64,000 nt of DNA from Chitinophagaceae bacterium (GTDB lineage: Bacteria; Bacteroidota; Bacteroidia; Chitinophagales; Chitinophagaceae), in assembly GCA_004028795.1 (NCBI GenBank), contig SAIW01000021.1, forward strand, positions 1 through 64,000. Reading direction: 5' to 3'. Positions within the stretch are counted from its first letter, which is position 1. Each line of letters starts with the position of its first letter. Shown here in pieces: positions 60,715-64,000 of this stretch. Below the pieces are notes generated by a model. It did no database searches and was not told the DNA's origin. It saw nothing but the letters and a program-made list of their open reading frames with translations. Made by a program: the position numbers and the translations under genes.

Positions 60715-61614
60715 TTAAGTATGTTGATCTTCTTCTGCAACAGCGGAAGCATTTTCTCTAAGCTGCCTTGTTGTTTTAGAACTGCCGTCATGGCTCCAGC
60801 CTGGAGGATTAAATAAATATTGAAAAAAGTGCTTAACACCATTGGGTTTGCGTAAATCTTTGGCAAGATTTATCCACTCATAAAAAGCAACTTTTACGGG
60901 ATTGAATGTTTTTACATTCCTTGTTAATCCATACTTAGGAGTAAATATTTCGGGTTGAAATGTGCCGAACATTCTATCCCATATAATTAAAATACCTGCA
61001 TGGTTTTTATCGAGGTATAATAAATCACTTCCGTGATGCACTCTGTGATGCGATGGTGTATTAAAGAAAAATTCAAACCATTTAGGCATTTTATCAATAG
61101 CTTCTGTATGTATCCAGAATTGATATAGCAGGCTTACAGACTGCATTAGCATTATCATAGCCGGATGAAAACCTATTAATGGCATCCAACTCCAGAATAA
61201 AAATGCTCCGGTTAAATTACCTGTCCATGTTTGTCTTAAAGCAGCAGCCAGATTATATTTTTCAGAAGAATGATGTACAACATGGCTTGCCCAAAACCAT
61301 CTTATATTATGTGCGGTTCTGTGAAAACAGTAATAACTGAAATCGTCAGCAAAAAAACATAAAACCCAGCCCCACCAGGCATTGTATGGTATGGTAAAAA
61401 ATCTGAAAGTATAAATCCAGGAAAAAAATACAAGTATAAATCCCTTAGTAAGAATGCCGATAAATAAATTGCCCAAACCTAAGCTGATACTTGTTGCTGC
61501 ATCTTTTACTTCATACAATTCACGCTGAAGTTTTATTGCGTAAATAACTTCAACAACAATTAAAATAATGAAACCCGGAACAGCATGAACCAATATATTG
61601 GGAAATTCAGGCAT
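60715..61614 (-). CDS. Sterol desaturase/fatty acid hydroxylase superfamily protein
   Basis: A 299-residue integral membrane di-iron oxygenase. The eight-histidine pattern is visible: CFHRTAH, SHVVHHSSE, HTEA and HHRVHHGSD. Four to six membrane helices. Family members hydroxylate or desaturate membrane lipids (sterols, fatty acids, carotenoids); which lipid is unknown. Start ATG at 61612-61614. Confidence 0.9.
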   Translation of the reverse strand: MPEFPNILVHAVPGFIILIVVEVIYAIKLQRELYEVKDAATSISLGLGNLFIGILTKGFILVFFSWIYTFRFFTIPYNAWWGWVLCFFADDFSYYCFHRTAHNIRWFWASHVVHHSSEKYNLAAALRQTWTGNLTGAFLFWSWMPLIGFHPAMIMLMQSVSLLYQFWIHTEAIDKMPKWFEFFFNTPSHHRVHHGSDLLYLDKNHAGILIIWDRMFGTFQPEIFTPKYGLTRNVKTFNPVKVAFYEWINLAKDLRKPNGVKHFFQYLFNPPGWSHDGSSKTTRQLRENASAVAEEDQHT

Positions 61615-61691: not shown

Positions 61692-61952
61692 TTATTCAGC
61701 ACATTGAAGGTTGCAGCCGTCTGTAGAACCTGCAATAGCTTCAGTTTCATAGCCGCTGCCCATTTCAGCAAAGAAAAATTGTTTAGTGTAGAAGTGATGA
61801 ATGTACAACTGGTTACCCTTACAGCATGTATAATCCATACCGGGTTTAAAACTTTTACCAAACATTTTAAAATTGGGAACTAAGGTTGTAGCAGTAATAA
61901 CAGTTATTGATACAAAAACAATAACTAAATTTAATTTAACTCGGTTAAACAT
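61692..61952 (-). CDS. Small four-cysteine membrane protein, paralog 1
   Basis: An 86-residue protein of no family known to me: N-terminal membrane helix or signal anchor (~8-27), then a short domain with MFGKSFK, MDYTCCKGNQLYIHHFYT, FFF and C-terminal GCNLQC. It shares a clear pattern with the next gene upstream: MFGKS-aromatic-K, DYTCCK, QLY, H-aromatic-YT, FFF, GCN-x-x-C. Four Cys in the same places suggest two disulfides in the periplasm or a metal site. It has its own promoter (61988-62017). Confidence 0.82.
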   Translation of the reverse strand: MFNRVKLNLVIVFVSITVITATTLVPNFKMFGKSFKPGMDYTCCKGNQLYIHHFYTKQFFFAEMGSGYETEAIAGSTDGCNLQCAE

Positions 61953-61987
61953 AGAACTTTTGGATTTAGGATTTTAAATTTTCGGTG

Positions 61988-62017
61988 CAAAAGTAGTTTT
62001 TTTACTACAGCATGCAA
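61988..62017 (-). promoter_or_regulatory. Promoter of small four-cysteine gene (paralog 1)
   Basis: Minus strand TTG (62015-62017) and TACTTTTG (61988-61995) with a 19-bp spacer, 36 bp before the start codon. Confidence 0.65.
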
Positions 62018-62042
62018 GTTTTTTTGCAGTTTTTTTTAAAAA

Positions 62043-62339
62043 TTAATTCGTATCGGGGCAATTTATGTTACAACCACCGGCAGAAGGTTTGCCTATTAAT
62101 TCTTTTTTAAAGCCTGTTTTAATCTTAATCCAGAAAAAAAACTCTGTGTAATAATGGTAGGTATATAACTGTCCGTCTTTACAGCAGGTATAATCGTTAT
62201 AAGATTTATAAGATTTGCCAAACATATTGGTGTAAGGAGAAGCTACAATAGCAATAACCAGAAACGAAGCAATAACTATAATAAGTTTATTGTTCTTAGC
62301 GGTATGTTTGGGTTGATACGCCACAAACAAATGTAACAT
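62043..62339 (-). CDS. Small four-cysteine membrane protein, paralog 2
   Basis: A 98-residue paralog of the downstream gene. One membrane helix (~17-36, NKLIIVIASFLVIAIVAS), then MFGKSYK, NDYTCCKDGQLYTYHYYT, FFF and GGCNINC. The ATG at 62337-62339 is the first possible start, but a TACATTTG box lies inside codons 2-4, so translation may begin at the in-frame TTG or GTG just after it. Function unknown. Confidence 0.8.
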   Translation of the reverse strand: MLHLFVAYQPKHTAKNNKLIIVIASFLVIAIVASPYTNMFGKSYKSYNDYTCCKDGQLYTYHYYTEFFFWIKIKTGFKKELIGKPSAGGCNINCPDTN

Positions 62340-62352
62340 AAAACTCTGCTTA

Positions 62353-62391
62353 ATAAAAAATCCCTTCTCTTTGGAAGGGATTTTTTATTTT
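62353..62391 (-). terminator. Intrinsic terminator after the pyrophosphatase gene
   Basis: AAAAAATCCCTTC pairs with GAAGGGATTTTTT around a 5-base loop. Works for the leftward pyrophosphatase transcript and isolates the small cysteine genes downstream. Confidence 0.88.
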
Positions 62392-62473: not shown

Positions 62474-64000
62474 TTATTTAAGTGTTACGATATTTGGCTT
62501 AGTATTAATATTAGCTTTTGTAATTGTAATTTCAACTTTCTTTTCAACTTTAGCTGCTGCAGTACAGTCTTTATGCAGTTGAGCCAAAGTAGGAGCCACT
62601 ACCAAAGAAACAATCGACATTAATTTAATTAAAATATTCATTGAGGGACCGGATGTATCTTTAAAAGGATCTCCAACTGTATCGCCCGTTACAGAAGCTT
62701 TATGAGGGTCGGATTTTTTATAGTGAATCTCACCATTTATTTCAACTCCTTTTTCAAAAGATTTTTTAGCATTATCCCATGCACCTCCTGCATTGTTTTG
62801 AAACATTCCCATTAATACACCGCTTACAGTTGCACCTGCTAAAAATCCACCTAAGGCCTCAGGGCCTAACAAAAAGCCGATAATTAATGGAGAAATAATT
62901 GCAATGGCACCGGGCAGCATCATTTTTTTAATAGAAGCATCAGTAGAAATGGCAACGCATTTATCATATTCAGGTTTGCCTGTACCTTCCATAATACCCG
63001 GTATATTTTTAAATTGGCGACGAACTTCTTCCACCATTGCCATTGCAGCTTGACCAACTGCACGTATTGCCAATGAAGAAAATATAAACGGAACCATTGC
63101 ACCAACAAATAAACACGCCAATACTTTCGCTTTATAAATGTCAATACCTGCCATCGCATAACCATTGTTATTAACTACACCAACATAAGCTGCAAATAAA
63201 GCCAACGCCGTTAATGCAGCAGAAGCAATAGCAAAACCTTTACCGGTTGCAGCAGTTGTGTTTCCTACAGCATCTAATACATCAGTTTTTTCACGCACTT
63301 CTCCGGGCAATTCACTCATTTCGGCAATACCACCTGCATTATCTGCAATCGGTCCGAAAGCATCAATAGCCAATTGCATAGCTGTTGTAGCCATCATACC
63401 TGCAGCAGCAATTGCCACACCATATAAACCAGCACATGCAAAACTTCCCCAAATACCTCCTGCTAAAACAATAATCGGTAATAATGTACTTTCCATACCA
63501 ACAGCTAAACCACCAATTACATTGGTTGCGTGGCCAGTACCGGATTGACGGATAATTGAAAGCACGGGGCGTTTACCCATTGCAGTATAATATTCGGTAA
63601 TAATACTCATTAATGTTCCTACTATTAAACCAACGGCAATTGCACCTAACACTCCATTATTGGTGAATGTTTGACCACGTAATTCCATCGTTTCAGGAAG
63701 AATATATTTCACTAAACCAACACAAGCCAAAGCAGTTAAAACAATTGAACCCCAGTTACCCATGTTCAATGCTTTCTGAACATTACCTGTATTAATTCCG
63801 GCAGCATCACTTACACGAACAAACAATGTTCCTATAATAGAGAAGATAATACCCACACCGGCAATTAGCATTGGTAAAAGAATAGGGGCGTATCCACCGA
63901 AATTGTCAATTGATTTTGTTTCTTGTCCTAACACCATAGTAGCTAAAACAGTTGCTACATAAGAACCGAAAAGGTCTGCACCCATACCTGCCACATCACC
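62474..64000 (-). CDS. hppA: Membrane-bound cation-pumping pyrophosphatase, C-terminal part
   Basis: Splits pyrophosphate and pumps Na+ and/or H+ across the inner membrane. The 508 visible residues continue to the right edge ([14 protein letters not shown]... is the conserved helix start), so the N-terminus is missing. Conserved pieces: [20 protein letters not shown] (pyrophosphate site), [41 protein letters not shown] and [20 protein letters not shown]. Ala in GNTTAAT, where K+-independent enzymes have Lys, points to the K+-dependent type. Ion specificity (Na+ or H+) needs the missing part and is left open. The tail beyond the last helix (~30 residues, Lys/Thr/Val-rich) is unusual. Confidence 0.95.

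Follow-up and report, generated by a model that had tools for sequence, protein, structure and literature searches.

Two adjacent genes near the end of the window (the 64,000-nucleotide stretch of a Chitinophagaceae contig analysed here) encode members of a family of small proteins built around four conserved cysteines. On the sequence evidence we are highly confident that this is an exported four-cysteine family. Small exported cysteine proteins specific to one lineage are a known kind; this family is a new one of that kind, with a new regulatory link, in that many of its copies outside the window carry a promoter dyad that co-occurs with a LuxR/NarL-type regulator. The reading that we prefer, tentatively and at somewhat under an even chance, is that these are small surface or envelope proteins, stapled by disulphides and either anchored or secreted, which would serve the surface or adhesion layer.

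Both window genes are encoded on the minus strand. The first of the tandem encodes a protein of 98 residues (62043..62339) and the second, recognised as an ORF and by its paralogy and cysteine alignment, a protein of 86 residues (61692..61952). In a BLASTP alignment 36 of 79 residues are identical (46%, E 3e-22), so that the paralogy of the two proteins is not due to chance. The first-pass annotation had described them as tandem paralogues at this place, which is confirmed, and the sequence blocks that it named as common to both proteins are all there. A genome-wide search of the window's own genome (G000; 3.43 Mb, 26 contigs) found four family copies arranged as two tandem pairs, the second pair being at G000:C7:412072-412599. 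The 98-residue ORF as drawn probably starts too early. A -7-like element, TACATTTG (62328..62335, minus strand), overlaps codons 2-4 of the ORF and is aligned with TATTTTTG in the orthologues from genomes G001 and G003, and in both of these a GTG is aligned with codon 6 (the G001 orthologue has an additional ATG two codons beyond it). Because the GTG is aligned in both orthologues and TACATTTG falls inside the drawn ORF, the true start is probably the GTG at 62324, giving a product of 93 residues.

The family does not correspond to any described one in the databases searched, as the annotation had supposed. Neither window protein matches a Pfam or NCBIfam family at E<=10, and a profile search of the PDB found no chain at E<=10. 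For 21 members the Pfam/NCBIfam matches are scattered, with best E values of 0.01 and 0.016 and none above the curated cut-off; these look like chance. None of the 21 matches a PADLOC model of anti-phage defence at E<=0.1, and a title-level literature search gave no title on a four-cysteine family of this kind or on the dyad. Fold searches with a model of moderate confidence gave nothing at E<=0.001 in Foldseek and Z below 5 in VIA, and exclude no family. The top structural row, the archaeal type IV pilus subunit 6w8u, likewise has an N-terminal helix followed by a β domain; its score is weak (Z 4.3, rmsd 5.2 over 84 residues), and there is no sequence support for a relationship.

The species distribution is narrow. 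Of 394 genomes from the same bacterial family, 24 were matched by a profile built from 21 rows. They belong to 7 of 101 genera and have 1 to 5 matches each, the match in G186 being weak (E 4.4e-7). Sampling across the order gave matches in 5 of 396 genomes, all from this same family, and sampling across the phylum in 2 of 395, namely the window's own genome and G926; all three sets are samples rather than full surveys. The G926 match was discarded, being 28 residues long and containing a stop. An initial single-protein search had matched 10 of 99 genomes, the own genome included; the matches in G031, G044 and G048 (E about 4e-4) were dropped as spurious, the first lying within a 714-residue frame and the others having internal stops. 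The 86-residue protein, the only query used for plasmids and phages, found no match there, and three pattern matches in viral contigs included no relative. A scan of genome contigs with the 98-residue protein found one relative, L005, from an uncultured Chitinophagaceae bacterium. A tree was drawn from 50 rows, with L091, L093, L095, L100, one truncated L099 row and repeated sequences left out and rows of more than 100 residues trimmed to their last 88; 11 of its 47 inner branches are drawn open.

The conserved core of the protein is the cysteine domain. The 21-member alignment has nine invariant columns, which include the four cysteines, the D and K of DxxCCK and the N of GCN. Of 77 rows, drawn from 24 genomes, 73 retain every one of the four cysteines; the set of 77 includes contig-end fragments, near-duplicate contigs from G050 and G422, and, from G277, a gene that contains a stop. 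Two of the remaining four rows are cut by contig ends, one is from G401, and one is the distant row from G186, which has no alignment in the region of the missing cysteines. The expectation that the four cysteines are kept in homologues thus holds. The G401 member (L104:8516-8791) keeps C1 and C4 and is without C2 and C3; neither an orthologue of the regulator described below nor an upstream dyad was found in G401. As C2 and C3 were lost together, in a single event, the sequences suggest that the bonded pairs are C2-C3 and C1-C4. The G186 member (L095:443-661) has two cysteines only and a signal peptide that by eye looks cleavable, and is possibly a link to a wider, older family.

Each window protein has one hydrophobic segment, at the N-terminus, with best 19-residue Kyte-Doolittle means of 2.28 and 2.41; after residue 40 the corresponding values are only 0.22 and 0.15. 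Among the 21 members a nearly invariant lysine precedes the hydrophobic stretch, and by eye a proline follows it in many. The stretch and its preceding lysine place the cysteine domain probably outside the cytoplasm, and the conservation of the cysteines, the one double loss and the hydropathy together suggest oxidised cysteine pairs there. AlphaFold2 models, built on three-row alignments and of moderate confidence, have for the 86-residue protein a helix at 2-29 and strands at 31-35, 41-45, 48-59 and 62-73 (mean pLDDT 72.5), and for the 98-residue protein a helix at 14-33 and strands at 40-54, 57-68 and 71-83 (mean pLDDT 68.0). The hydropathy and these models support the N-terminal helix and the probably exported cysteine domain proposed in the annotation. 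No cysteine lies ahead of DYTCC in either window protein, and the lipobox cysteine of Bacteroidota lipoproteins is thus absent. Nor does any of the 21 members have a C-terminal sorting domain such as Por_Secre_tail at E<=10, as would be expected of T9SS cargo.

Four cysteines and a nearly invariant histidine, with a CC pair and GCNxxC, could also bind a metal or heme, or take part in thiol exchange in the periplasm. Next to the copies at the second locus there is, in G000, G001 and G003, a CutC gene (assigned by clustering, with Pfam run on G000 only), which would fit such a role. However, this gene is on the opposite strand and the arrangement is seen only in the window's genus, the window proteins contain no CXXC, the G401 member has kept C1 and C4 only, and no known metal family was matched. 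Nothing specific to copper or heme was found to bear out the binder suggested in the annotation, and we regard a metal or redox function as improbable.

We think it similarly unlikely that the proteins are secreted, antagonistic peptides resembling bacteriocins. Small size, the cysteines, the tandem arrangement, as many as 5 matches in one genome and uneven divergence between copies would all suit such peptides, and a GG occurs inside the hydrophobic segment in 2 of 21 members. Against this, neither window protein has a GG ahead of the cysteine domain, the core residues are strongly conserved rather than hypervariable, and the Pfam-scanned neighbours, from few loci, include no dedicated exporter, immunity or maturation gene. 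The one ABC ATPase noted near a copy, at G000:C7, is three genes off and encoded on the other strand, and it has no peptidase match. The bacteriocin- or immunity-like product suggested in the annotation accordingly finds no bacteriocin cassette among the scanned neighbours.

The evidence that points to a surface role comes from the promoters of the sister copies. Upstream of many copies outside the window, directly ahead of a promoter-like stretch, there is a dyad, CCCYNNNTNRAGGGRTT. In its strict form it is found upstream of 15 of 55 family genes and in none of 200 mononucleotide shuffles, and in a relaxed form upstream of 19 of 55, against a shuffle mean of 0.065; the pattern was derived from the same family genes on which it is scored here, and L091, which duplicates L005, is omitted from the upstream table. 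Across whole genomes the dyad is rare, with 3 or 4 sites each in G000, G001, G003, G239, G176 and G113 and no match to the reversed control; G286 has one site against two control matches. Two other forms of the pattern were tried and rejected. A strict dyad with a fixed -7 element gave one match in six genomes and was too narrow, and allowing two mismatches gave mostly noise (sites against control matches: G000 16/2, G001 10/7, G003 7/5, G002 9/13). In G020, G156, G182 and G208 a palindrome, CCCTCAATTGAGGG, is matched on both strands, and these genomes therefore count twice for one site.

The dyad is also found ahead of a regulator. At G000:C11:115274-118283 (in locus L129) an operon encodes a response regulator (Response_reg and GerE domains) and a PAS histidine kinase. 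The dyad is present twice ahead of it, at a spacing of 104 bp, and the regulator is likewise preceded by two sites in G001, G002, G003, G113 and G194. The dyad precedes the regulator gene in G000, G001, G002, G003, G113, G186, G050 and G422 and, by coordinates, in G107 and G194. By genus, it was found upstream of the regulator at all six loci examined from g1, g104 and g98, and at only 2 of 14 loci in g48. NarL-type regulators bind inverted sites of the CCC/GGG type. The regulator is no relative of the four-cysteine family; it is rather the putative controller of the dyad-bearing copies, which would bind the dyad and whose own promoter has the dyad in many genomes. The idea that the family is an extracellular ligand of the kinase was dropped, as the only domains that Pfam shows in the kinase above the cut-off are PAS and kinase domains.

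A regulator orthologue (E<=1e-30) is present in 14 of the 24 family-bearing genomes. Seventeen of these 24 were scanned genome-wide for the dyad: all 10 that have the regulator also have the dyad, and none of the 7 that lack the regulator does. Over 195 genomes of the bacterial family, the dyad occurs in 16 of 18 genomes with the regulator (E<=1e-40) and in 60 of 177 without it (Fisher P 7e-6, with no correction for kinship, so that the P value overstates the independence of the genomes). By manual count the reversed control matches in 3 of the 18 and in 47 of the 177, which means that most single dyad matches in genomes without the regulator are near background. When 20 more loci are included, giving 72 rows with at least 125 upstream bases, the dyad is on 19 of 46 family genes in regulator-bearing genomes and on 0 of 26 in the others. 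The strict dyad is missing from 27 of the 46, and G002 has the regulator and three dyads, yet its sole family gene has none upstream. In genus g25, where no regulator orthologue was found, three genes, in G162, G277 and G316, have a related site, CCCCCGAAATAGGGAT, and another regulator may therefore read such sites. Taken together, these observations make it likely that the LuxR/NarL regulator controls part of the family.

Other genes behind the dyad encode PKD proteins and large adhesin-like proteins. Of the four sites in G000, one is before the C7 family pair, two are before the regulator/kinase operon, and one, which falls within the 3' end of the ORF ahead of it, is before a gene for a PKD protein, itself followed by a gene for a DUF4397 protein (Pfam-scanned). 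The set is repeated in G001 and G003, where one family gene stands in place of the pair and the PKD-DUF4397 order was assigned by eye. In G286, G176 and G239 dyad sites precede proteins of the pAdhesive_15 family (PF20597), with a small lipoprotein-like gene in between in G239. The genes concerned (L136:6349-10086, L138:2932-7476 and L140:6566-8857) encode proteins of 763 to 1514 residues and have the dyad before the gene itself or the next one upstream; L139 is adhesin-like by eye. These adhesin-like proteins have the dyad in common with many family copies in g48. They differ in being large and multidomain, with no sequence relation to the family, and in the T9SS tail, which family proteins do not have: among three pAdhesive_15 proteins scanned, Por_Secre_tail was found in two, above the cut-off in one. 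It is possible that an adhesin regulon is under the dyad in g48. A further site, in G176:C48, faces an OmpA-family gene 344 bp away, which could not be linked to this gene set. The assignment of dyads to genes leaves out one dyad in G002 and several in G050.

The window pair itself has neither the strict nor the relaxed dyad within about 200 upstream bases, and co-regulation with adhesin-like genes is thus evidence on the sister copies only. The first-pass annotation gave each window gene its own promoter, and this is plausible. Ahead of the 86-residue gene (61988..62017, minus strand) a TTG (62017-62015) is separated by N19 from TACTTTTG (61995-61988), which fits the Bacteroidota promoter pattern, TTG-N19-TANNTTTG; the 98-residue gene has the -7-like TACATTTG. 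The form TTG-N18..21-TANNTTTG is found upstream of 4 of 55 family genes (shuffle mean 0.31, maximum 3). Within the promoter of the 86-residue gene is a near-palindrome, GTAGTAAAAAAACTAC (61993..62008, minus strand), a similar one being present in the G001 orthologue and absent from that of G003; the looser GTAG-N3..8-CTAC occurs upstream of 5 of 55 family genes (shuffle mean 0.37, maximum 2).

The pair lies between two other minus-strand genes. Upstream is hppA, for a membrane H+-pyrophosphatase (62474..64000, running past the window; PF03030, E 1e-265), and downstream a gene of the fatty acid hydroxylase superfamily (60715..61614; PF04116, E 4.3e-27), which is also found in several relatives. 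The neighbourhood layout covers 42 of 43 loci, L093 having fallen out by its length. A family gene is directly downstream of hppA in 10 genomes from 4 genera, and BlaI-BlaR1 genes (PF03965, PF05569) are next in 8 genomes from 5 genera, sometimes after the fatty acid hydroxylase; both assignments are by sequence clusters, with one Pfam scan each. In relatives the BlaI-BlaR1 genes are thus conserved on the downstream side of hppA-linked copies; no member of the BlaI or BlaR1 clusters is found within the 19 kb that surround the window pair (L007). At L005:6324-8610 and in relatives, a TACGA-N6-TCGTA dyad precedes the start of BlaI (c2), by eye in 9 of 9 loci, two of them of the same sequence, and is likely to be an autoregulatory operator. 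These half-sites differ, again by eye, from the GTAGT type in the window promoter, and a BlaI operator there was rejected.

This conserved position would suit an accessory of the pyrophosphatase, or a protein acting as ligand or partner for the BlaR1-like sensor whose gene is nearby. However, a hairpin and T-run (62355..62387, minus strand), recognised by eye, is a probable hppA terminator and separates hppA from the pair, and many family copies elsewhere have neither neighbour. The flanking genes c4-c6 are syntenic as well, so that the position beside hppA may simply be inherited. We therefore give little credence to a role with either partner.

We return to the preferred reading, a small disulphide-stapled protein of the surface or envelope. 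The N-terminal hydrophobic helix would direct export via Sec, and would then either remain as an inner-membrane anchor or be cleaved. This would leave outside the cytoplasm an antiparallel β domain of about 55 residues and three or four strands, clipped by two disulphides that probably join the second cysteine with the third and the first with the fourth. The family, multiplied partly through tandem duplication, would have an accessory role at the cell surface or in the adhesion layer. Some of the copies, as a group, would be switched on together with large adhesin-like (pAdhesive_15) proteins and PKD proteins by the LuxR/NarL regulator and its PAS histidine kinase. The window pair would belong to another group, beside hppA and under its own promoters, and the surface role that we propose for it is based on the company kept by the sister copies and not by the pair itself.

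A bolder version of this proposal, to which we would attach only a small probability, is that these proteins form a new class of Chitinophagaceae surface coat: disulphide-clipped β modules in interchangeable copies, part of them brought into use alongside giant adhesin-like proteins under a single autoregulated two-component system, with the outer layer remodelled as paralogues are swapped. What the analysis provides is a change of status for two orphan ORFs, which become members of a defined family that offers a regulatory handle. In environmental Bacteroidota, a group with little-known surface biology, the dyad connects these small proteins with one particular two-component system and with genes of the adhesin-like type.
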